Source: Bacilli bacterium
GTDB lineage: Bacteria; Bacillota_I; Bacilli_A; RF39; UBA660
Assembly: GCA_017411405.1 (NCBI GenBank)
Contig: JAFQQE010000012.1
Coordinates: forward strand, 81,280 to 145,279
Length of the DNA: 64,000 nt
Direction: 5' to 3'
Shown here: positions 10,570-63,625 of the stretch, one piece after another
Numbering within the stretch: position 1 is the first letter of the stretch
How the letters are laid out: every line of letters starts with the position of its first letter
Notes under the pieces: generated by a model
Databases searched by the model: none
Told to the model about the DNA's origin: nothing
The model's input: only the letters and a program-made list of their open reading frames with translations
Program-made: the position numbers and the translations under genes

Positions 10570-11670
10570 ATGTTTGATTTTAGTAATTTTAATAATGCTG
10601 ATATAGTTAATACAACAGCAAATAATGAAGGGATGTTAGCTTTATTTTTAGGGACTTTAATTTTTTCTTTGATATTATCTATTATATTAATAATATCTTA
10701 TGTTAAAGCTTTAAAGAAATCAGGAGCATCTTTAATTAATATTTTATGGTTGTTTTTACCTATACCAATATTAGGAAGTGTTATGTTAGCATTGAAGATT
10801 GATCCTAAAAAATATGGTAAGGGTAGTGGTTATTTAGTTGGTATGATTTTATTACCTATAATATTTGTTCCTATTATAGCTTTTTCAGATAATGTTGTAA
10901 AAGACAATAGTGAAAAACAAGATAATACGAATTTTGATGCAATGAATGTTGTGAACAATGATGTTGAAATTAATAGTTTTGGAAACACATCAATAGTAGA
11001 TAATACGAATAATATACCAGTAGAAAATAATAATACATTAGAAGTTGAAACAGATGTTAATCGTCAAGGTATATCTAATTTAAATATTGAACCTCAAATT
11101 GAAAATTCAATAAATGTTGTAGATTCTACTATTAAAGATATGCAAGAACAAAATAATGGTACTCTAAATAATGAACCTGTTTTAGATTCTACACCTATAA
11201 TGGAAAGTGCTCCAGCATTTAATAGTGTGCCTGAAATTCCTGTAAGCGAACCTGTGAATGTAGAAACAAATATTGAAACCCTTTCAGAAAACCAAGCGCA
11301 ACCATCAGCATTTAATAGTGTGCCTGAAATTCCTGTAAGCGAACCTGTGAATGTAGAAACAAATATTGAAACTTTTTCAGAAAATCAAGTACAATCATCA
11401 GCATTTAATAGTGTGCCTGAAATTCCTGTAAGCGAACCAGTTGGTTTAGCTTCAACTATAGAACAAATTCCTGAAAAACCGGTTGAGCCTAATATTAATA
11501 ATGGAATAGATAATGTGGTTCAAATAGAGCCAATTATGGAAGAACCTATTAAGGTTGAAGAAGTTTATGTTACTCCAATAGTTACAGATAATAAAGTTTG
11601 TAAAAATTGTGGTAATGCTATTCCTGATATTGTTTCAATTTGTCCTAATTGTGGAACAGATAATGAGTAA
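10570..11670 (+). CDS. Membrane protein with Pro/Glu/Val repeats and C-terminal zinc ribbon
   Basis: The exact function is unknown. Residues about 20-45 and 50-105 hold three hydrophobic segments (LFLGTLIFSLILSIILI, NILWLFLPIPILGSVML, GYLVGMILLPIIFVPIIAF). The resemblance is to small membrane proteins annotated in gut Firmicutes with a DUF5684-like N-terminus. A long Asn/Glu-rich linker follows with a tandem 31-aa repeat (AFNSVPEIPVSEPVNVETN), two and a half copies. A zinc ribbon closes the protein (CKNCGNAIP, CPNCG). It is preceded by a strong promoter and followed by a terminator, so it forms a single-gene unit. The start ATG has AAAGGTGAT upstream. Confidence 0.75.
   Translation: MFDFSNFNNADIVNTTANNEGMLALFLGTLIFSLILSIILIISYVKALKKSGASLINILWLFLPIPILGSVMLALKIDPKKYGKGSGYLVGMILLPIIFVPIIAFSDNVVKDNSEKQDNTNFDAMNVVNNDVEINSFGNTSIVDNTNNIPVENNNTLEVETDVNRQGISNLNIEPQIENSINVVDSTIKDMQEQNNGTLNNEPVLDSTPIMESAPAFNSVPEIPVSEPVNVETNIETLSENQAQPSAFNSVPEIPVSEPVNVETNIETFSENQVQSSAFNSVPEIPVSEPVGLASTIEQIPEKPVEPNINNGIDNVVQIEPIMEEPIKVEEVYVTPIVTDNKVCKNCGNAIPDIVSICPNCGTDNE
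11215..11442 (+). repeat. 93-bp tandem repeat inside the zinc-ribbon protein gene
   Basis: Copies begin at 11215, 11308 and 11401 (the last partial). They are nearly identical at DNA level and in frame (31 codons). The near-identity shows a recent duplication or continuing homogenisation. Confidence 0.9.
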
Positions 11671-14676: not shown

Positions 14677-14753
14677 GGCGGGATTGGTGAAGTGGTTAAC
14701 ACGCCGGATTGTGGCTCCGGTATGCGTGGGTTCGATCCCCACATCTCGCCCCA
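14677..14753 (+). tRNA. tRNA-His (anticodon GTG)
   Basis: The full cloverleaf can be folded. The acceptor is GCGGGAT with ATCTCGC (one G-T pair), the anticodon stem is CCGGA/TCCGG with loop TTGTGGC, and the T stem is GTGGG/CCCAC. The extra G-1 that marks tRNA-His is encoded at 14677 and faces C73 at 14750. CCA is encoded at 14751-14753. Its 3' end and following terminator are copied several times downstream, and the accessory island begins here. Confidence 0.97.
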
Positions 14754-14765
14754 TTTGAGTATTTG

Positions 14766-14966: not shown

Positions 14967-15099
14967 GTCAAAAAAAGGTCAAAAAAATCGAAAAAAAAGG
15001 TCAAGCACTAGGTCAAGGATTGGTCAAGGAAATCAACTGAAAAAGGCAAATAAAAGTCATATTTAGCTCATTTTTTGGTCAAAAATAAGTACAGTAAAT
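14967..15099 (+). repeat. 11-bp phased repeat array 1
   Basis: Degenerate units of consensus GTCAnnAAAAR. Unit starts: 14967, 14978, 15000, 15012, 15023, 15045 (GGCA), 15056, 15067 (CTCA), 15078, 15089 (GTAC). Steps are 11 or multiples, with one 12. The last unit is GTAC, and the -10 of the next gene begins 71 bases after its start. The stretch 14798-15193 has no gene. Confidence 0.85.
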
Positions 15100-15135
15100 T
15101 TCGTAAACTTAGGTTGTAAAGGGTTTTATAGCATA

Positions 15136-15165
15136 TTTACAAATAATAATATGTGATGATATAAT
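15136..15165 (+). promoter_or_regulatory. Promoter of island gene 1
   Basis: TTTACA (15136-15141) and TATAAT (15160-15165) with an 18-base spacer. The same elements, spacing and distance from the array recur before island genes 2 and 3. Confidence 0.7.
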
Positions 15166-15193
15166 TTTAAATAGAAAGTAGGTTGAATTAAAA

Positions 15194-15946
15194 ATGGAAG
15201 AAAAGAAAAATAATAAAGGATTAGTTTTGTTAATTGTAATTTTATTAATTTTAGTACTAGGATTAGTAGGGTATATTTTTTATGATAAAGTTTTGTTAAA
15301 AGACATACCACAAAATGAGAATAATATTACTTCAATTACGACTACAAATATAAAAGAAAGTTATAATGATATAAAAGCAATATTTAAATCTTTGCCTAAT
15401 AAAAATGATGAATCAGTATTGTGGGATGGTTCCATTAATGATCTTATTAAAGAAGAAGTTAATTTTGACACAGATTTTAAGAATGTTAGTAAAAATGAAC
15501 ATGGTTTTGATTTAGATTATAGTTGTGTTGAATATAATCCTGAGGATAATGATGAAGGAATAGATAAATGTACTAAATTTGAAATTGTTATAAATAATCA
15601 AAAAAATGAATTATATTCTAATTTTTGGTATCATTTAAGGGTAATGTTAACAAAAGAATATCTAATTACTTATGATGGTAGTTTTGCAGGAGATTTAAGG
15701 ATTTTTGATAAGACAGGAAAAGAAATTTTTAATGAATACATAGCTACTGATTTTGGAATTAAATTAGATGAAGAAAATTATGTTGATGAAATTTATGGTT
15801 ATACACCTAGTATTAAAGATAATAAGTTATATTTTGTAAAATATATTAAAGGAAATGAGGATACTTTTGTTATAAGTAATTTTGATTTAAGTAATAAAAA
15901 AGTAACTGAAATTTCAAATTTTAAGGGCGATGTAGGAATAATTTAA
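15194..15946 (+). CDS. Island gene 1: membrane-anchored protein, 250 aa
   Basis: Function unknown. It starts with MEEKKNNKGL and has one uncleaved membrane anchor (about residues 10-31, LIVILLILVLGLVGYIFYDK) followed by a Thr/Asn-rich linker. The exposed domain of about 200 residues is predicted strand-rich, with two or three Cys. The first 35 residues are almost the same in the next two genes, while the outer domains differ strongly. That is the pattern of a family with a fixed anchor and diversified exterior. The ribosome site is AGGTTG, 9 bases before the ATG. It has its own array-promoter and 3' hairpin element. Confidence 0.75.
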   Translation: MEEKKNNKGLVLLIVILLILVLGLVGYIFYDKVLLKDIPQNENNITSITTTNIKESYNDIKAIFKSLPNKNDESVLWDGSINDLIKEEVNFDTDFKNVSKNEHGFDLDYSCVEYNPEDNDEGIDKCTKFEIVINNQKNELYSNFWYHLRVMLTKEYLITYDGSFAGDLRIFDKTGKEIFNEYIATDFGIKLDEENYVDEIYGYTPSIKDNKLYFVKYIKGNEDTFVISNFDLSNKKVTEISNFKGDVGII

Positions 15947-16080
15947 AATAACTGGATATATAAAAATATTTGTGCTAAAGTGATAATAGAGGACAAGATA
16001 CAAGGGAGCTTCTATTATGTTCACAAAACGCCCCATTAAGATATTTGGTGAAGCTGAAAAAAGCTTCACTTTTTCTTTTG
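15947..16080 (+). other. Conserved 3' hairpin element A plus terminator
   Basis: ATAACTGGATATAT, then GTGATAATAGA (15980-15990) paired with TCTATTA...TTCAC (16011-16024) across a G-rich loop. Next comes ACGCCCCATT, copied from the tRNA-His 3' end, and the terminator GTGAAGC/GCTTCAC (16048-16069) with a T run. It is most likely the structured 3' UTR of island gene 1. Confidence 0.75.
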
Positions 16081-16249
16081 CAAAAGCCTTTATTTATAGG
16101 GGGTTAAGAGTAATTATTATATTTATATCTTTTATAATTATTAATTAATTTTCTTAAAATTATACAAAAAATCTATTAAAAAATAGAATATCAAAAATCA
16201 TTAAAAAAATGTTGTTTTTTATGTAAAAATTAGGTAAAAACTTTTTTAG

Positions 16250-16360
16250 GTCAAAAAAAGGTCCAGGAAGTGGCTAAAAAAAGTCAAGGTTTAGGTCAGA
16301 AAAAAGTCAAAAAAAGGTCAAAAAAAAGTCATATTTCGGTCATAAAAAAGTACTGGACAT
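16250..16360 (+). repeat. 11-bp phased repeat array 2
   Basis: Unit starts: 16250, 16261, 16272 (GGCT), 16283, 16295, 16306, 16317, 16328, 16339, 16350 (GTAC). All steps are 11 except one of 12. The -10 of island gene 2 begins 71 bases after the last unit start. The gene-free stretch 16081-16249 is plain AT-rich DNA. Confidence 0.88.
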
Positions 16361-16396
16361 GTTGTAAAGTAAGATAGTAAAGGGAATTTTAAAATA

Positions 16397-16426
16397 TTTA
16401 CAAGAAATAAAACAAGATGATATAAT
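16397..16426 (+). promoter_or_regulatory. Promoter of island gene 2
   Basis: TTTACA (16397-16402) and TATAAT (16421-16426), 18-base spacer. Confidence 0.7.
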
Positions 16427-16455
16427 TTTGTTATAGAAAAAGAGGTTGAAAAAAT

Positions 16456-17304
16456 ATGGAAGAAAATAAAAATAATAAAGGATTAATTTGGTTAATATTA
16501 ATTTTAATAATATTAGTATTAGGATTAGTAGGTTATATTGTATATGATAAACTTTTAAAAATTGATAAGACTATTCCTAATAATGATGAAACAACAATTA
16601 CCACAACAACTACTGTAAAAAATGAAATATTCAGAGATAGTGTTTCTGAACTATTTGTTGATTATCCAATTAAAAATGATGAAACTGTTATTGCAAATGG
16701 GTTTATTGATGAAATTATAGAAAAAAATATAAGTCATAAAGAAATATATGAAAATAAAAAAAGTAAATTTATTGGGACAGATATTGAATTTACATATAAT
16801 TCAAAAAAATGTAATATGGAAGAAGTACAAGATGATAATGGGAACATTATCAATTATGAGAATTGGTGTGAAGATATAGAAATTAGTATAGATGGTAATC
16901 ATATTTTTACTATAAATGTACCTGCTAAAGGTCCAGGAGAAGATATTCCGTATATTCTCATAACTAACAACTATATAATTAGCCAATATGATGGATTTGA
17001 TGAATTTGATGGAAACGGAGTTATTAAAATATTTAATTTAAATGGTAAATTGATTAAAGAAATAAAAAACACAAGTTATATGGGTATGCTAGATGATTGT
17101 GGTGATTATAACGAAAATGAAAATACTGTGTTTTATGATAAATATGTAATGATAGATAATAATAAACTATATTATGTTTCTTATTCTGATGTATGGTTTC
17201 CGGGAAATGACACAGAAAATGCAAGTATAAATTACTTAGATTTAGATACTATGACAGAAAACGTTTTAAAGAAATTTAAAGCAAGATTTACACAACAATG
17301 TTAA
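16456..17304 (+). CDS. Island gene 2: membrane-anchored protein, 282 aa
   Basis: Paralogue of island genes 1 and 3. It has the same N-terminus (MEENKNNKGLIWLILILIIL), one membrane anchor at about residues 10-31 and a Thr-rich linker (ETTITTTTTV). The exterior domain differs, with four Cys (CNMEEVQDD..., NWCEDIEI, DDCGDY, and one near the C-terminus). The predicted strands and motifs of the type IKIFNLNGKLIKEI recall beta-propeller-like or bacterial surface domains, but no family is recognised. It is co-located with its own array, promoter and hairpin element B. Confidence 0.75.
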   Translation: MEENKNNKGLIWLILILIILVLGLVGYIVYDKLLKIDKTIPNNDETTITTTTTVKNEIFRDSVSELFVDYPIKNDETVIANGFIDEIIEKNISHKEIYENKKSKFIGTDIEFTYNSKKCNMEEVQDDNGNIINYENWCEDIEISIDGNHIFTINVPAKGPGEDIPYILITNNYIISQYDGFDEFDGNGVIKIFNLNGKLIKEIKNTSYMGMLDDCGDYNENENTVFYDKYVMIDNNKLYYVSYSDVWFPGNDTENASINYLDLDTMTENVLKKFKARFTQQC

Positions 17305-17319
17305 TTCGTAAAAAAATAT

Positions 17320-17463
17320 AATTAAAATTAATAACTGGATATATGAAAATAAGTGTGATAAAGTGATAATAGAGGACAGAAACTAAGGGAGCTTCTATTA
17401 TGTTCACAATACGCCCCATTTGAGTATTTGGTGAAGCTGAAATAAGCTTCGCTTTTTCTTTTG
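17320..17463 (+). other. Conserved 3' hairpin element B plus terminator
   Basis: AATTAAAATTAATAACTGG leads to GTGATAATAGA (17363-17373) paired with TCTATTA...TTCAC (17394-17407). ACGCCCCATTTGAGTATT follows, matching the bases after tRNA-His exactly over this stretch apart from the first base. The terminator is GTGAAGC/GCTTCGC at 17431-17452; its G-T pair keeps the stem. Confidence 0.78.
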
Positions 17464-17785
17464 GAAATCCCTTATTTCAAGGGCTTTTGTCATTTTAAAT
17501 GATTTTTGATAATAAAATATTTTCAAAAAAAATAGAAAAATTGATAAAATTAAATTTAAAAATAAAATCTCTAAAAATTCCTTAATTTAATACTTTTTTT
17601 GATGAAAAAATCAATAAAAAAATGGTAAAAGTCAAAAAAAGGTCAAAAAAATAGAAAAAAAAGGTCAAGCATTAGGTCAAGGATTGGTCAAGGAATTCAA
17701 CAGTAAAAGGCAAAATAAAGTCATATTTAGGTCATTTTTTGGTCAAAAATAAGTACAGTAAATTTCGTAAACTTAGATTGTAAAG
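17430..17785 (+). repeat. About 365-bp direct repeat, copy 2
   Basis: Second copy of 14765-15130: terminator, AT-rich filler and 11-bp array in the same order with only scattered changes and small indels. Confidence 0.85.
17631..17763 (+). repeat. 11-bp phased repeat array 3
   Basis: Unit starts: 17631, 17642, 17664, 17676, 17687, 17720, 17731, 17742, 17753 (GTAC), i.e. steps of 11, 22 or 33 with one 12. The -10 begins 71 bases after the last unit start, exactly as in arrays 1 and 2. Confidence 0.87.
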
Positions 17786-17799
17786 GCCTTTCTAGATTA

Positions 17800-17829
17800 T
17801 TTACAAGAAGTAATTAATATTGATATAAT
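17800..17829 (+). promoter_or_regulatory. Promoter of island gene 3
   Basis: TTTACA (17800-17805) and TATAAT (17824-17829), 18-base spacer. Confidence 0.7.
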
Positions 17830-17859
17830 AAAAATATAGAAAAAGAGGTTGAAATAAAA

Positions 17860-18630
17860 ATGGAAGAAAAGAAAAATAATAAAGGATTAATTTGGTTAAT
17901 AGTAATTTTAATTATTTTAGTATTAGGATTAGTAGGATATATCGTTTATGATATAGTTTTGAAAGTTGATAAAACTAATCTTACTCCAAATAATACTAGC
18001 ACAACTACTACAAGTAAAAAGATTATAGAAGAACAAAATTTTACTAAATATCCTGAAAAAAACGATGATAATATTGTTAATTTTAACTTGCATGAATTAT
18101 ACGTTAATGAAAATGTTAATTTAATGGAAAATTTTAAAAATTTAAAGTTAAAAAAAGGAAATATAGATTATACACTAAATTGTACGAAGTATGATGAAGC
18201 GCATGTTGAAGCATTTGGATATGCATGTAGTCATTTTGAAATTTTAATTAATAAAGTAAAATTAGAAGATTATTTTAATGAAGGTTGTGGACATACAAAG
18301 CATATTATAATTAATGGAGATTATTTAATATTACAACTTTCCACAGGATGTGATGAAGGTTGTGGATATATTAAAATATTTAAAAATGGCGAACTTATTT
18401 ATACTGTAAAAGGTACTACATCTTATTTGGATTTAAATGATTCTTTTGATAATATAATAAAATATTCTAATAACAAATTATATTACTTTATCCAAACAAA
18501 AGAAACAGATGTGGCTTATAATGTATTGAAAATGATTGATTTTAATAAATCTGAAATAATAGAAGAAGAATTAGAAAGAAAAGAAACTGATTATGCTGTT
18601 TGCTATGATCTTTCTGGCGAATTTGAATAA
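17860..18630 (+). CDS. Island gene 3: membrane-anchored protein, 256 aa
   Basis: Third paralogue. The first 30 residues (MEEKKNNKGLIWLIVILIIL...) are nearly identical to gene 1, with one anchor at about 10-31, then TTTTSKK. The outer domain has six Cys in CTKYDEAHVEAFGYACSHF, EGCGHTKH, GCDEGCGYIKIF and AVCYDL, suggesting disulfides or metal binding outside the cell. No family is recognised. It is preceded by array 3 and followed by hairpin element C. Confidence 0.75.
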   Translation: MEEKKNNKGLIWLIVILIILVLGLVGYIVYDIVLKVDKTNLTPNNTSTTTTSKKIIEEQNFTKYPEKNDDNIVNFNLHELYVNENVNLMENFKNLKLKKGNIDYTLNCTKYDEAHVEAFGYACSHFEILINKVKLEDYFNEGCGHTKHIIINGDYLILQLSTGCDEGCGYIKIFKNGELIYTVKGTTSYLDLNDSFDNIIKYSNNKLYYFIQTKETDVAYNVLKMIDFNKSEIIEEELERKETDYAVCYDLSGEFE

Positions 18631-18661
18631 TATTTGTATAAATTGTTAAATGAATAATATA

Positions 18662-18805
18662 TAATTAAAATTAATAACTGGATTTACAAAAATATATGTG
18701 ATAGAGTAATAATAGAGGACAGAAACTAAGGGAGCTTCTATTATGTTCACAAAACGCCCCATTAGGCAATTTGGTGAAGCTGAAATACGCTTCACTTTTT
18801 TCTTT
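18662..18805 (+). other. Conserved 3' hairpin element C plus terminator
   Basis: TTAATAACTGG block, GTAATAATAGA (18706-18716) with TCTATTA...TTCAC (18737-18750), ACGCCCCATT, and terminator GTGAAGC/GCTTCAC (18774-18795). The first unit of array 4 (18806) begins directly at the end of the terminator T run. Confidence 0.78.
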
Positions 18806-18958
18806 GTCATAAAAAAGTCAAAAAATGGTCAACTTTTGGTCATGAAAAAGTCTTGAAAAGGTCCTGAAAAAGTACAGAAAAAGTCAAAAATTTATAAATA
18901 AAAGTCAGGTTAAGGTCAAAAAAAGGTCATAAATAAGTCAAAAAAAGGTACTGGACTT
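18806..18958 (+). repeat. 11-bp phased repeat array 4
   Basis: The clearest array. Unit starts: 18806, 18817, 18828, 18839, 18850, 18861, 18872 (GTAC), 18883, 18904, 18915, 18926, 18937, 18948 (GTAC). All steps are 11 except one 21. The -10 (TAAAAT) begins 67 bases after the last start. A-tracts of 4-7 fall at the same place in most units. Confidence 0.92.
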
Positions 18959-19011
18959 TTTGTAACAAATTTTTTTTAAAACAAAAAATTATTTCTTTTA
19001 AATCATTTTTA

Positions 19012-19020
19012 TGTTAAAAT
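19012..19020 (+). promoter_or_regulatory. Extended -10 promoter of island gene 4
   Basis: TGTTAAAAT with TAAAAT at 19015-19020. The bases from about 18985 to the ribosome site are nearly identical before island gene 6 (21378). Confidence 0.55.
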
Positions 19021-19045
19021 ATAAAATACAAATGGAGGTTTTGAA

Positions 19046-19558
19046 ATGGAAATAATTAATAAAGAATATGTAAAAATAGATAAATTTGATCTTTTTATCG
19101 AGCAAGTAAGAGCATCAACAGAAGATAATAAATTTAATATAAATTTTTTTCAAAATTTAACACGTATTATCTATGATTATGAAAAGAAAAATCATAGATC
19201 TATAAATGAACTATATATAAAAACTGATAGTCTATGTTATAAAAAATTACAAAAGACTATACAATTTTCTATAAAAAGACAAACAGTAATAAATGCTATA
19301 ATATTTGCTTTATTAAATAATGAGACAAATATTGCATTACAGTTAATAAATCATATTAAACAAGATAAAATTTTTCCTAGTCAATTGGATAATTTATTAG
19401 ATTATGTTTTTATTAATGGAATGAATACAAATGATTTTTTCAATGGTGAAAAAGATAAATTTATTTATAATGATACTAAAAATGAAATTGAAATAGGTAA
19501 AATTTATAATGTAAATACAATTAAATCGACAGGACAAACTAAAAAATTAATTAAATAA
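19046..19558 (+). CDS. Island gene 4: hypothetical protein, 170 aa
   Basis: Not recognised. Soluble and helix-rich, with no signal or anchor. It contains Lys/Asn-rich amphipathic helices and a Gln/Leu-rich part (ALQLINHIKQDKIFPSQLDNLLDYVF) like short helical-repeat proteins. A strong GGAGG site is 7 bases before the ATG. The promoter and ribosome-site region is a duplicate of that of island gene 6, although the proteins do not look alike. This again shows that upstream modules are shared while coding parts differ. Confidence 0.7.
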   Translation: MEIINKEYVKIDKFDLFIEQVRASTEDNKFNINFFQNLTRIIYDYEKKNHRSINELYIKTDSLCYKKLQKTIQFSIKRQTVINAIIFALLNNETNIALQLINHIKQDKIFPSQLDNLLDYVFINGMNTNDFFNGEKDKFIYNDTKNEIEIGKIYNVNTIKSTGQTKKLIK

Positions 19559-19618
19559 AAATATTTTATACTAAAAGTAGTATTTTTGACAGACTAAATA
19601 TATATAATATTATGTGGA

Positions 19619-19762
19619 GTCAAAAATTGGGCAGAAAAAGGTCAAACTACAGGTCATGTTTTGGTCAACCTTTAGTCATGAGTTGGGCAAGGAATGGTCA
19701 TGAAGTGGTCACACAAAAGTCAAGATTTGGTCATTTTTAGGTCAAAAAAAGGTCAAAAAAAT
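19619..19762 (+). repeat. 11-bp phased repeat array 5
   Basis: Unit starts: 19619, 19630 (GGCA), 19641, 19653, 19664, 19675, 19686 (GGCA), 19697, 19708, 19719, 19730, 19741, 19752. Twelve steps, all 11 except one 12. It starts about 60 bases after island gene 4. The only thing downstream before the next array is hairpin element D with a possible TATAAT near 19775. Confidence 0.9.
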
Positions 19763-19812
19763 CTAGACTAAATTTATATAATGCGGTATAAATTTTATTG
19801 TAAGGATAATTT

Positions 19813-19896
19813 GACAATAGAGGGCTTCTATTATGTTCACAAAACGCCCCATTAAGATATTTGGTGAAGCTCTAGTAAGCTTCACTTTTTCTTTTG
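19813..19896 (+). other. Conserved hairpin element D plus terminator (short form)
   Basis: Short-loop version: AATAGA and TCTATT around a 5-base loop, then TATGTTCACAAAACGCCCCATT and terminator GTGAAGC/GCTTCAC (19864-19885). Unlike the other copies it does not follow a gene directly; array 5 lies between. It could be a free-standing small RNA. Confidence 0.65.
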
Positions 19897-19905
19897 CATA
19901 AAAAA

Positions 19906-20046
19906 GTCAAAAAAAGGTCAAGTTTTGGTCACGAAAAAGACCTGAAAAAGTACCGAAAAAGTCCAGAAAAAGGCAAAAAATTATAGAAAAAAGTCAAGAC
20001 TAGGCAAAAAACAAGCAATTTTTGATCAAAAAAATGTCAAAAAAAG
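19906..20046 (+). repeat. 11-bp phased repeat array 6
   Basis: Unit starts: 19906, 19917, 19928, 19939 (GACC), 19950 (GTAC), 19961, 19972 (GGCA), 19993, 20003 (GGCA), 20014 (AGCA), 20025 (ATCA), 20036. Steps are 11 with one 21 and one 10. It shares unit order with arrays 4 and 7 and is the most degenerate at its 3' end. Confidence 0.82.
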
Positions 20047-20096
20047 TTATGTGAGTATTGTTTGTGATATAATAATTTTAGAAAAGGAGAAATCAC

Positions 20097-20639
20097 ATGA
20101 AAAAAACAAGTAAAAAGAATGTTAGACGCGCCCTATTATCTATAACTGTTGGGATATTAGTATGCATGCCACTTGCAGTCATAGAGGCATGGCCAGTGGT
20201 AATACTTTTCGGTGGTATTTGTAGTATTTTTCCAGGTGCGGTAATTCTTGATAAATTAGGGCTAATAGAATTAGTTGATGTAAAAAGATATAAAAAAATT
20301 GTTGATGAAAAAGGTAATATATTATATGATGATTATGAAAATGTAAAAAAAGTAGATGCGAACGATTATGAAAAAGAATTGAGATTTGCTGACGAAAGAA
20401 AAAGAGCAAATATATTATTTGAAGATACATACAAAAAGCCAATTATTACTAAACAAACAAGAGAAAATATTTTAAATTCTCCTAATTTATATTCAAATTG
20501 CGATATTAGAGTTAGGATGGGAAAATTTTATACTGACGAAGAAAAAGAAAAGTATATAGAAGAAAGCTTAAAAAGACCTTTACCTGGTGAAGAAGGACTT
20601 AAACTAATAAAAAAGTGGAAACCAAGAAATAATAAGTAA
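20097..20639 (+). CDS. Island gene 5: membrane protein, 180 aa
   Basis: Not recognised. A basic N-terminus (MKKTSKKNVRRALL) leads into two hydrophobic segments at about residues 12-32 and 34-55 (SITVGILVCMPLAVIEAWPV, VILFGGICSIFPGAVILDKL). A charged soluble domain of about 120 residues with many Lys/Glu follows. The N-in topology puts the large domain in the cytoplasm if both segments span. AAAAGGAGAAATCAC gives a good ribosome site. It lies after array 6. Confidence 0.68.
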   Translation: MKKTSKKNVRRALLSITVGILVCMPLAVIEAWPVVILFGGICSIFPGAVILDKLGLIELVDVKRYKKIVDEKGNILYDDYENVKKVDANDYEKELRFADERKRANILFEDTYKKPIITKQTRENILNSPNLYSNCDIRVRMGKFYTDEEKEKYIEESLKRPLPGEEGLKLIKKWKPRNNK

Positions 20640-20643
20640 TATT

Positions 20644-20672
20644 TTGACATCTTATAATATTTATGATATATT
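20644..20672 (+). promoter_or_regulatory. Strong promoter before the inverted-repeat element
   Basis: TTGACA (20644-20649) and TATATT (20667-20672), spacer 17. It starts 5 bases after the stop of island gene 5 and would begin transcription near 20679. Confidence 0.65.
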
Positions 20673-20706
20673 GAATACGTCAAAGAAATTTGCATAAAAT
20701 AAAAAA

Positions 20707-20936
20707 GGATACATTTGATTGCGAGAATCAGATGTTTCCCTTAATGGATTGCATCTGAAATCAACAGTTGTTGAAATCAGATGTTTTTATTATTTATACA
20801 GTAAGGTGATTACTATAAAAAATAATAGTAGATTTATTATAAATAGAGAAAACTCTCTTTTAGTCATAATTAACCACCACCTTTCATTTATGTTTATAAA
20901 CGAAAGGGAAGGCATCTGATATTTTCAAATGTATCC
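20707..20936 (+). repeat. 230-bp terminal-inverted-repeat element (MITE or structured RNA)
   Basis: The ends are exact 12-bp inverted repeats, GGATACATTTGA (20707-20718) and TCAAATGTATCC (20925-20936). Inside, ATCAGATG (20727-20734) pairs with CATCTGAT (20913-20920), and TTCCCTT pairs with AAGGGAA. The interior folds into further hairpins (CATCTGA...TCAGATG, AGTAnnnnnnTACT, AGAGaaaaCTCT, CCTTTC...GAAAGG). A 66-codon frame crosses it but looks accidental. A strong promoter lies 30 bases upstream. It is either a non-autonomous transposon or an RNA with a closed multi-branch fold. Confidence 0.7.
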
Positions 20937-20989
20937 AAATAAATTATAGCAAACATTTGTATTTTCGACAATAAGAATCTATAAAAAAA

Positions 20990-21137
20990 TATAATTAAAG
21001 TTAATAACTGGATATATAGAAATATATGTGATAAAGTGATAATAGAGGACAGGAACTAAGGAAACTTCTGTTATGTTCACAACATGCCCCATTAACATGT
21101 TTGGTGAAGCTGAAATAAGCTTCATTTTTTCTTTGGC
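20990..21137 (+). other. Conserved 3' hairpin element E plus terminator
   Basis: TTAATAACTGGATATAT, GTGATAATAGA (21036-21046) with TCTGTTA...TTCAC (21067-21080), where an A-to-G change leaves a wobble pair. TGCCCCATT follows, then terminator GTGAAGC/GCTTCAT (21104-21125). It is separated from island gene 5 by the inverted-repeat element, as if that element had been inserted in the 3' UTR. Confidence 0.75.
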
Positions 21138-21289
21138 GTAAAAAAGTCAGAAAAAACGTCAACTTTTGGTCACGAAAAAGACCTGAAAAAGTACTGGAAA
21201 AGTCCAGAAAAAGTCAAAAAATTAGAGAAAAAAGACAGGTTTAGGTCAAAAAAAAGGTCAAAAATAAGTCATAAAAAAGTACTGGACTT
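21135..21289 (+). repeat. 11-bp phased repeat array 7
   Basis: Unit starts: 21135 (GGCG), 21146, 21158, 21169, 21180 (GACC), 21191 (GTAC), 21202, 21213, 21234 (GACA), 21245, 21257, 21268, 21279 (GTAC). Steps are 11, with two 12 and the same single 21 as array 4. The -10 begins 67 bases after the last unit start, as for array 4. Confidence 0.9.
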
Positions 21290-21342
21290 TTTGTAACAAA
21301 TTTTTTTTTAAATAAAAAATAATTTCTTTTAAATCATTTTTA

Positions 21343-21351
21343 TGTTAAAAT
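21343..21351 (+). promoter_or_regulatory. Extended -10 promoter of island gene 6
   Basis: TGTTAAAAT with TAAAAT at 21346-21351, in a block almost identical to that before island gene 4. Confidence 0.55.
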
Positions 21352-21377
21352 ATAAAACACAAACGGAGGTTTTGTAT

Positions 21378-22127
21378 ATGAATATAGAATTTGTATCTAA
21401 AGATAATGAAGCAAAAGTGTTTGATGAAAATAACAATGGTAAAAAAATTAATAATACTGATAATATTGAAGAAATATTAATAAAAGAAAATGTAATTGAA
21501 AACATGGAAAAGGAAATTGAACAATTAAAAAAAGATATTAATAATTATAATAAAAGTCGAAGAATTCCAACTTGGTTACCTTTAACTATGTTTACAATAC
21601 TACCTTTAATTATTAATCCTATTATAATGAATGAACTTGGTGTATGGAATGATATAATATCTAATACTATTCTTGGTATAAATAAGTTAGGACCATTACT
21701 AACTGTTTCAATTACCGGTTTTATGATAATACCTGGGTCTTTAATGTCATTATCATTTTTATTAGCAAATAAAGAAAGAAATAAATATCAAAAAGCTAGA
21801 GAAATAAAATTAGAATTTTTAAAAAAAGATATTGTTAATCAAAGAGAATTATTAAATGAATTAAAAAACAACAAAACTTTAAGTGAAGAAAATAAAGATT
21901 TTAAAGTTCAAAAAGTTAATGATTTAGAGCAATTAAAAAGTTTAAGAGCATGTTTATTATTATGTGAACATATTGCTTACAATGAAAAGAAATGGTATAA
22001 ATATTATCAAGAAGGTAAGTTAGCTAAAAAAATGGAAAAATATTGGAATGAATCTGGTGTAGAAATGGCTAAAGATTATTTTGAAGAAAAAGGACCTATA
22101 TTAGCCAAAAAATATGATAAAAAATAA
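21378..22127 (+). CDS. Island gene 6: coiled-coil membrane protein, 249 aa
   Basis: Not recognised. I start at the ATG at 21378, 8 bases after GGAGG; an upstream in-frame ATG falls inside the promoter. Residues about 20-60 form a charged coiled coil (EEILIKENVIENMEKEIEQL). Two membrane segments follow (WLPLTMFTILPLIINPIIM and LLTVSITGFMIIPGSLMSLS), then a long Lys/Glu-rich coiled coil and a C-terminal Tyr/Trp-rich tail. The architecture suggests a cytoplasmic coiled-coil protein anchored by a hairpin of two helices. Confidence 0.68.
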   Translation: MNIEFVSKDNEAKVFDENNNGKKINNTDNIEEILIKENVIENMEKEIEQLKKDINNYNKSRRIPTWLPLTMFTILPLIINPIIMNELGVWNDIISNTILGINKLGPLLTVSITGFMIIPGSLMSLSFLLANKERNKYQKAREIKLEFLKKDIVNQRELLNELKNNKTLSEENKDFKVQKVNDLEQLKSLRACLLLCEHIAYNEKKWYKYYQEGKLAKKMEKYWNESGVEMAKDYFEEKGPILAKKYDKK

Positions 22128-22163
22128 AAAGTTTTATTTAGAAAAAGATAAAATATGAATAAG

Positions 22164-22230
22164 GTCATAATTTGGTCAAAAAAAGGTCATGCAGTAGGTC
22201 ATTTTTTGGGCAACCTTTGGAAAATAAAAA
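22164..22230 (+). repeat. 11-bp phased repeat array 8 (short)
   Basis: Unit starts: 22164, 22175, 22186, 22198, 22209 (GGCA), 22220 (GAAA). This is the last array; after it the island's repeats cease. No hairpin element follows, and the next gene is the LigD-like one. Confidence 0.8.
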
Positions 22231-22342: not shown

Positions 22343-23734
22343 ATGAAGAATAATTTAACTAAATATAATAATAAAAGAAATTTTGATAAAACTAAAGAAC
22401 CTAGAGGTAAAAAAGAAAGTAATAATAAAAAACTTAGATTTGTTGTTCAACATCATATTGCAAGAAAAGATCATTATGATTTGAGATTAGAATACGATGG
22501 AGTATTAAAGAGTTGGGCAGTACCTAAAGGACCTAGTTATAATATTAAAGATAAACGTTTATCAATTTTAGTAGAAGATCATCCATTAGAATATCGTAAT
22601 TTTGAAGGTGTTATACCTAAAGGTGAGTATGGTGGTGGTACTGTCATGTTATTTGACGAAGGAACTTATGAACCTTTATATGACTTTAAGAAAAGTTTTA
22701 AAGATGGAATGATAAAAATTATATTATATGGAAAAAGATTAAAAGGTGTTTGGACTTTAGTTCATTTTAAAGAAGATAATTGGTTGTTAATCAAGGAAAA
22801 AGATGAATATATGGAATTTAGTGATATTAAAACTATTAATACAAGTATTAAAAGTGGTAGAACAATGGAAGAGATTGAAAATGGTATAAAAAATAATACT
22901 GAAGATGTTATAGAGGGTGTTAAGATAAGTAATCCTGATAAGATAATTTATAAGAAACCAAATATTACTAAATTGGAAATAATTAAGTATTATAAAGCTG
23001 TTTCAAAAAGAATGTTGCCATATTTAAAAAATCGTGTTATAAGTACGGTTAGATGTCCTGATGGAATAGATGGTGCTTCTTTTTTTAAAAAACATTTTGA
23101 AAATGAAAGAGAAGGTTTATGTAAAGTAGATTTAAAAAATATGAGTAGTAAAGAAGATGATTATTATTTTCTAACAAGTGTAAAAGGTTTAATAAGTGAA
23201 GTTCAAATGAATAGTTTTGAATTTCATATTTGGGGAAGTAGAGTGGAAGATTTAGAAAATCCTGATATATTGGTTTTTGATTTCGATCCTGATGAAAATT
23301 TAAATTTAAAGAAATTAAGAGATGGAGTTAGAGATTTAAAAAGTATATTAGATGAATTGAAATTAAAGTCTTTTTTGAAAACTAGTGGTGGTAAAGGTTA
23401 TCATGTTTTGGTTCCAATTAGTGGGGTAAATTGGAAAGAATTTCGTTTGATTGCGAAAAATATTGCAGAATTAATGGAAGCAAAATGGCCTTTAAAATAT
23501 ACAAGTAATATTAGAAAACATAAACGTAAGAATAAAATATTTATTGATTGGGTCAGAAATACTAGGGGAGCTACTAGTGTTGCACCATATTCTTTAAGAC
23601 TAAGAAATAAAGCAACTGTGTCCTTTCCAATCTCTTGGAATGAGTTAGATAAAATTAAACCGAATAGTATAACTTTAAAAAAAGCATTAGAAAAAATAAA
23701 AGGAAAAGATCCTTGGAAAGGTTTTTATAAATAA
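22343..23734 (+). CDS. LigD-like 3'-phosphoesterase + polymerase fusion, no ligase domain
   Basis: End-processing enzyme of bacterial non-homologous end joining. Residues about 10-165 form the phosphoesterase domain with its full active site: QHH, HYDLRLE (His, Asp, Arg) and DHPLEY (His, Tyr). Residues about 190-460 form the archaeo-eukaryotic-primase-type polymerase: HFENER region, the metal-binding DFDPDE, the SGGKGYHV motif and FIDWVRN (third acidic residue). The ATP-dependent ligase domain that joins these in LigD of Pseudomonas or Mycobacterium is absent. The ligase may be separate, and no Ku gene is in the window. It lies at the right edge of the island. Confidence 0.9.
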   Translation: MKNNLTKYNNKRNFDKTKEPRGKKESNNKKLRFVVQHHIARKDHYDLRLEYDGVLKSWAVPKGPSYNIKDKRLSILVEDHPLEYRNFEGVIPKGEYGGGTVMLFDEGTYEPLYDFKKSFKDGMIKIILYGKRLKGVWTLVHFKEDNWLLIKEKDEYMEFSDIKTINTSIKSGRTMEEIENGIKNNTEDVIEGVKISNPDKIIYKKPNITKLEIIKYYKAVSKRMLPYLKNRVISTVRCPDGIDGASFFKKHFENEREGLCKVDLKNMSSKEDDYYFLTSVKGLISEVQMNSFEFHIWGSRVEDLENPDILVFDFDPDENLNLKKLRDGVRDLKSILDELKLKSFLKTSGGKGYHVLVPISGVNWKEFRLIAKNIAELMEAKWPLKYTSNIRKHKRKNKIFIDWVRNTRGATSVAPYSLRLRNKATVSFPISWNELDKIKPNSITLKKALEKIKGKDPWKGFYK

Positions 23735-63481: not shown

Positions 63482-63577
63482 ACAGTGCAAAAAGGATTAA
63501 AAAATATAAAAATGCACTGTTTTTTTAAAATTTAGTGCAAAAATGGTTAAAAAAACACAAAAATGCACTGTTTTTTT
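63482..63577 (+). terminator. Two tandem near-identical terminators
   Basis: ACAGTGCA (63482) with TGCACTGT (63513-63520) and a T run; then AGTGCA (63534) with TGCACT (63564-63569) and a T run. The second is a duplicate of the first including ttttttaaaattta at its end. Confidence 0.8.
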
Positions 63578-63625
63578 AAAATTTAGTTTATTTTTAAAAA
63601 TATTACTCAATAAAATTATAAAGTA

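Follow-up and report, generated by a model that had tools for sequence, protein, structure and literature searches.

The window analysed here is a stretch of 64,000 nucleotides from a Bacilli bacterium (GenBank assembly GCA_017411405.1, contig JAFQQE010000012.1, positions 81,280 to 145,279 of the forward strand). Between its tRNA-His gene and a LigD-like gene lie eight arrays of an 11-bp direct repeat, in which a GTCA core is followed by an A/T-rich spacer. A first-pass annotation, made from the letters of the window, had taken these arrays for a free-standing chromosomal feature. We found instead that every array is part of a mobile one-gene cassette and that repeated copies of the tRNA-His 3' end delimit these cassettes, a context which that annotation missed. 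The reading we favour, and to which we give about an even chance, is that the locus consists of tandem integrase-less single-gene mobile cassettes at the 3' end of tRNA-His, and that the arrays act as a cis-acting site read by a protein supplied in trans.

Segmentation of the window with a unit profile placed 88 units in eight arrays, close to the 90 or so units in eight arrays first described:

14967-15099, forward strand: array A1, 11 units, left side of cassette c0.
16250-16360, forward strand: array A2, 10 units, left side of cassette c1.
17631-17763, forward strand: array A3, 11 units, left side of cassette c2.
18806-18958, forward strand: array A4, 13 units including a 21-base step, left side of cassette c3; it has a homologue in G178, a genome of another genus.
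19619-19762, forward strand: array A5, 13 units, right-hand array of c3; a 3-unit right array occupies the matching place in G178.
19895-20046, forward strand: array A6, 12 units, left side of cassette c4.
21135-21289, forward strand: array A7, 13 units, left side of cassette c5.
22164-22219, forward strand: array A8, 5 units, 3' of the c5 gene.

The unit consensus reads G (94%), T (83%), C (88%) and A (79%), then seven A/T-rich bases. Exact GTCA cores in the window are paired at lags of 11 (n = 29), 12 (n = 7), 21 (n = 1), 22 (n = 20) and 23 bases (n = 7), with zero pairs at every other lag within 5-24 bases; the complementary core has no comparable spacing in the window, and the array signal is confined to one strand. 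Against the 29 lag-11 pairs observed, 600 second-order Markov simulations gave a mean of 0.23 and a maximum of 2, so that the reported GTCA period of 11 bases is confirmed, as is the 21-base step shared by A4, A6 and A7. The A-tracts are often broken or swapped for T-tracts and the spacers vary, while GTCA is retained across some 88 units. The view that the arrays work as DNA rather than as protein and are helically phased is likewise supported; an Rfam search of the locus gave the tRNA (RF00005) as its sole match and thus no known structured RNA for the arrays. The expectation of curved DNA was borne out in part: in a simple wedge model (300 shuffles per array) the predicted curvature lies clearly above the shuffles in A4, A6 and A7 (reached by 0 of 300), but is unconvincing in A1, A2, A3 and A5 (reached by 10-32 of 300).

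We then looked for arrays of any sequence with a period of 11 bases throughout the genome assembly (1.04 Mb in 29 contigs, 78% complete; 1.02 Mb without N), and the true matches were the eight arrays of the locus alone. The other period-11 windows scoring above 16 were one tRNA gene and one non-array stretch, the shuffled maximum being 14-21; A8 scored 11.8. A scan with the unit profile found fewer unit chains outside the locus than in shuffled sequence, with an equal maximum. The arrays are confined to this locus and are therefore not spread through the genome, the outcome that the first-pass annotation had named as speaking against it.

The arrangement of the locus is set by the tRNA gene and by repeated copies of its 3' end, which we take as attachment (att) sites, and by two types of conserved right end:

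14678-14753, forward strand: tRNA-His (GTG), whose 3' end is the integration target (ARAGORN; Rfam RF00005; empty site in G044).
14747-14755, forward strand: att copy 1, CGCCCCATT, the end of the tRNA itself; the hairpin terminator GGTGAAGC...GCTTCAC with its T-run comes next (pattern search).
16029-16037, forward strand: att copy 2, boundary of c0 and c1 (pattern search and alignment, as for the four copies below).
17412-17420, forward strand: att copy 3, boundary of c1 and c2.
18755-18763, forward strand: att copy 4, boundary of c2 and c3.
19845-19853, forward strand: att copy 5, boundary of c3 and c4.
21085-21093, forward strand: att copy 6, TGCCCCATT, with one change, boundary of c4 and c5.
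17318-17411, forward strand: conserved right end of the type found in c0, c1, c2 and c4, containing the inverted repeat AATAGAGG...CTTCTATT immediately ahead of att (alignment; fold).
19763-19844, forward strand: right end of the c3 type, common to the G178 cassette (87% identity over right end plus att; alignment).

A whole-genome search for CGCCCCATT together with the terminator GGTGAAGC...GCTTCAC and T-run returned six copies, all at this locus. They split it into five complete single-gene units of 1282, 1383, 1343, 1090 and 1240 bp, each running in the order att, terminator, array, promoter, one gene in the direction of the tRNA and a conserved right end before the next att; the sixth unit (c5) is without a right end, and no CGCCCCA copy follows A8. 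The placement of arrays between a terminator and a promoter, as first described, holds for six of them but not for A5 and A8, which sit behind genes: a second array behind the gene is present in c3 (A5) and probably also in the broken c5 (A8). The left array begins 50-51 bp from the core in c3, c4, c5 and G178, and the last unit of the right array lies about 91-93 bp from the core in c3 and G178. Judged from the alignment, the core flanks resemble an imperfect inverted repeat (CACAAAACGCCCCATT...ATTTGGTG) of the kind that tyrosine recombinases have at their core sites.

Filled and empty sites in relatives provide the evidence for mobility. The cassette right end and a tolerant array pattern served as queries against 386 genomes of the family; an exact search for four GTCA cores proved too strict for G178, which was found by the right end and the looser pattern. 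Behind its tRNA-His gene, G178 has the left end known from the window; next come a 13-unit array, which again contains the 21-base step, a 357-aa gene other than those of the window, a 3-unit right array and a right end of the c3 type, and the direct repeat CGCCCCAT stands at both ends of the cassette, the second copy 1477 bp after the first. Its genus-mate G044 represents the empty site: there, tRNA-His joins directly the sequence that lies behind the cassette in G178. Two marks of a tRNA-integrating element, direct repeats of the tRNA 3' end and an empty site in a close relative, are thus present, and by this comparison of sequences the cassettes are mobile. Array, ends and core are common between the genera, while the genes differ, and with sequences about 20% diverged the other genus still has the 13-unit layout. 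Cassettes with arrays are rare: the tolerant pattern met them in 2 of the 386 genomes, and in a sample of 395 genomes of the class, families other than this one held no comparable cassette. Other small insertions use the same gene. In G020 an array-less acetyltransferase cassette of 793 bp stands at tRNA-His, the site being empty in its genus-mate G160, and G008 carries an integrase-less 2.6-kb insertion at tRNA-His with a 52-bp direct repeat and an AbiJ defence gene. The insertions in G178, G020 and G008 thus make tRNA-His a recurrent target for small elements in the family. Within the G008 insertion (L181, 576-2747) the AbiJ gene is accompanied by a 396-aa open reading frame (ORF).

The cassettes of the window carry the following genes and one further module:

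15194-15946, forward strand: c0 gene, 250 aa, with a single-transmembrane anchor and an outer domain of no known family.
16456-17304, forward strand: c1 gene, 282 aa, with an N-terminal anchor as in c0 and a different outer domain.
17860-18630, forward strand: c2 gene, 256 aa, with an N-terminal anchor as in c0 and c1 and a different outer domain.
19046-19558, forward strand: c3 gene, 170 aa, no family; a chromosomal paralog lies on contig C18 (L338:17302-17802).
20097-20639, forward strand: c4 gene, 180 aa, no family.
21378-22127, forward strand: c5 gene, 249 aa, no family.
20690-20867: type I toxin-antitoxin-like module in c4, ORF 20790-20867 on the reverse strand and hairpin sequence 20690-20800 on the forward strand.

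None of the cassette genes matched a Pfam or PADLOC family above cut-off, in agreement with the earlier statement that no parM/parR is present: none is recognisable in the locus. The membrane anchor of the c0, c1 and c2 genes is common also to a gene on contig C25, and outside the anchor these genes differ. The G178 cassette gene shares 80% DNA identity, from the -10 box through the stop codon, with a gene on contig C27 of the window's genome, which lies in ordinary chromosomal surroundings; upstream of the -10 box the similarity stops. Being 80% identical to an ordinary chromosomal gene, it indicates that the cassettes carry captured genes. The c4 module pairs a 25-aa hydrophobic ORF, which has a good ribosome site, with a stable hairpin sequence on the opposite strand. 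A 16-base stretch of this module exactly matches small elements beside tRNA-His in G008 and G025. As the insertions at tRNA-His carry AbiJ, acetyltransferase and toxin-antitoxin-like modules, the site may be a general exchange point for small genes in the family.

According to the reading we favour, cassettes would insert one after another by site-specific recombination at the tRNA-His 3' end, and the tRNA end would be re-formed, together with a terminator, at every insertion. Each cassette would be made up of a left end (att, terminator and an array of 10-13 units), the gene it has captured and, as right end, an inverted repeat with att; some would have a second array. A protein supplied in trans, most likely from another mobile element, would bind one subunit per helical turn; the bound subunits would form a head-to-tail filament wrapping the DNA beside the recombination core, and a recombinase in trans, presumably a tyrosine recombinase, would then excise or integrate the cassette. 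Because the arrays form part of the cassette backbone, are helix-phased, occur at a single locus and are set near the core, we infer that they are an element-specific site for a trans-acting protein; they would probably serve recombination, with transcription and partition the less likely roles. Binding by a protein that wraps the DNA, as already proposed, or forms a filament on it is a reasonable inference. The earlier observation is confirmed, and its interpretation as a whole is partly supported. An integrase's own arm domain, or a partition or transfer protein, would also fit as the reader of the array.

Several points weigh against this reading. Five tyrosine recombinases (PF00589) are encoded in the window's genome, two of Xer-like size and three belonging to mobile elements, but none lies in the window or near tRNA-His, none is found inside the cassettes, and we identified neither a recombinase nor an array-binding protein for them. 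Integrase arm clusters are not known to reach 10-13 units. At the attP sites of tyrosine integrases, arm-type repeats bound by the integrase N-domain stand on both sides of the core; c3 and G178 have arrays on both sides, and c0, c1, c2 and c4 have a left array and no right one. The left array lies about 220 bp from the core in c0-c2, so the array-core distance is not universal, and the distances that do agree come from related, non-independent cassettes. Six genes, moreover, have an array upstream of their promoter. Finally, in comparisons of homologous arrays from different cassettes the cores are as variable as the spacers; the evidence for core conservation is therefore the comparison among units within arrays.

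The position before promoters is what an operator would predict, and a PhoB/OmpR-type or other head-to-tail regulator could co-regulate all cassette genes through the arrays. The E. coli Pho box CTGTCATAAAA consists of tandem 11-bp repeats of GTCA plus an A-tract. The array unit resembles it in its direct 11-bp repetition, its GTCA and its A-rich spacer, and some of the promoters behind the six upstream arrays have, judged by eye, weak -35 boxes. Still, 10-13 units are far above a normal operator, A5 and the right array of G178 sit behind genes, the -10 box lies at unequal distances from the array (some 66 bp in c3, 48 bp in G178 and 32 bp in c4), and the rest of the genome, at 78% completeness, holds no sites above shuffle level. 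A PhoB-type host regulon is disfavoured by the missing sites and the variable promoter distance, and the confinement to one locus fits an element-specific site better; we regard operators as unlikely. Just as unlikely, in our estimate, is a centromere-like, iteron-like or transfer site of an excised circle read by a ribbon-helix-helix-type helper protein. Following the lead of the first-pass annotation, ParR/parC offers the same kind of 11-bp direct repeats at about one helical turn, and a wrapping protein is plausible; in addition, mobile elements with a tyrosine integrase in G294 and G325, two further genomes of the family, carry short 11-bp arrays of GTAC/GGAC plus A-tract, some 400-500 bp ahead of a pair of small ribbon-helix-helix-like genes. 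These arrays, however, comprise about 5 units with a different core, the element ends do not match tRNA-His, and for one of the two small proteins Pfam gave a sub-threshold HicB match. The cassettes themselves are without a partition or replication gene (Pfam), with no ParM/ParR found in the locus, and their arrays, one or two each, lie in integrated tRNA-anchored units, unlike parC. The G294 array is located at L322 about 14290 and the G325 array at L323 about 2030-2115, with an element end near CTTCAGGGGGTTTTGG.

We consider two further explanations far less probable than the preceding ones. Phased A-tracts could stimulate promoters by their shape, in the manner of UP elements, with GTCA as a by-product of tandem duplication. 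The strong predicted curvature of A4, A6 and A7 would suit this; the retention of GTCA alongside varying spacers and interrupted A-tracts would not, nor would the four arrays that are not clearly curved and those behind genes, and we hold it to be very improbable. Slightly more remote still is a passive origin by ordinary tandem-repeat expansion carried in a duplicated locus. Ordinary 11-bp GTCA tandem repeats do occur in many phage contigs, but here the spacers differ between units while the core stays, and in a second genus a mobile cassette that holds another gene has kept the 13-unit layout through about 20% divergence.

Among known systems, cis-mobilizable elements (CIMEs) and integrase-less cassette arrays come nearest, and the locus works like a row of either. 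CIMEs keep their att ends, lack integration genes, stand in tandem at a target gene and need an integrase in trans (PMC5704250). The cassettes likewise keep att ends, are without integration or transfer genes and stand in tandem at a tRNA gene. CIMEs, however, are decayed integrative and conjugative elements (ICEs) or integrative and mobilizable elements (IMEs), whereas the cassettes are uniform one-gene units of 1.1-1.5 kb with long 11-bp arrays, in which Pfam found no ICE or IME gene remnants. Clusters of attC sites lacking integron-integrases (CALIN) are integrase-less arrays of attC cassettes (PMC11389934), and like integrons they share with the present locus head-to-tail single-gene cassettes with similar ends, different genes and no integrase nearby. 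Their folded attC contrasts with the present site, a direct repeat of 8-9 bp formed by the 3' end of tRNA-His, and the cassettes described here have their own promoters and arrays of 11-bp units; the attC/IntI signature of integrons was not found, although no dedicated IntI model was run. For the arrays, the best parallel may be the winged-helix directionality factors RdfS, P2 Cox and lambda Xis, together with their relative BldC. Subunits of these proteins, one for each turn of DNA, line up head to tail into a filament, either near the att core or on promoters; for RdfS the place is beside attP (PMC11963761). Published RdfS sites span about 40 bp and have no consensus motif, while the arrays here span 110-150 bp with a clear consensus, and no RdfS-type protein was identified for the cassettes. 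Our literature searches, which covered open-access papers, turned up no system that combines one-gene cassettes, a tRNA 3'-end site and long ladders of 11-bp units. We therefore raise, as a tentative suggestion, an undescribed gene-capture system of helper-dependent one-gene cassettes with a tRNA 3'-end site, in which the helically phased 11-bp array of 10-13 units serves as a filament-nucleation or recognition tag. Such a tag might, with the same reserve, let one trans-acting machine move any adjoining gene, integron-like in outcome with another site and mechanism. If our favoured reading is true, an uncultured low-GC bacterial family takes up ordinary genes into cassettes that have no recombinase of their own and lines these up at a tRNA gene, and the mobilisation of integrase-less cassettes becomes testable via the protein that reads the 11-bp ladder.

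The search for such a helper covered the integrases of the window's genome and of seven relatives, none of which has an 11-bp GTCA array beside it, as well as viral contigs, plasmids and phages compared with the cassette ends or the array, which gave no helper and one 31-base Listeria match. The integrase element on contig C13 ends at a different sequence, CTTCAGGGGG; Pfam did not confirm a small ORF next to this integrase as DUF3173. A helper could sit in the missing part of the genome (78% complete) or in other strains. Tyrosine integrases L394 (G020) and L395 (G178) are 99.7% identical; their host genera differ, and each of the two has cassettes at tRNA-His. The integrases represent a recently shared mobile element, for which a helper role is possible.

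Searches for similar arrays elsewhere yielded candidates that we rejected. Five successive GTCA units in viral contigs (at least 120 matches) are ordinary 11-bp tandem repeats with near-identical spacers and not relatives. A stricter array pattern gave 14 loci in genome contigs, mostly ordinary tandem repeats; the matches in G193 and G194 are due to chance, and the arrays in G331/G151, G608/G655 and G618 have different cores or lie in phage or insertion sequence (IS) contexts. In the small genomes G608 and G655, which belong to another family, 11-bp GTCA or GTAAC arrays lie near IS3-like transposase genes (L407 in G655, L408 and L418 in G608), with three array copies in G608. Four-unit GTCA 11-bp repeats were also seen just upstream of a small membrane-protein gene in metagenome-assembled genomes of Gammaproteobacteria (L211, L215, L221), where they are a possible operator.

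Downstream of the cassettes, the LigD-like protein encoded at 22343-23734 of the window combines phosphoesterase and primase-polymerase domains and has no ligase domain; a LigD-like gene is also found downstream of tRNA-His in G020. Elsewhere in the window there are two tandem repeats, one of 93 bp in 2.4 copies (11213-11438) and one of 51 bp in 2.1 copies (63484-63587).

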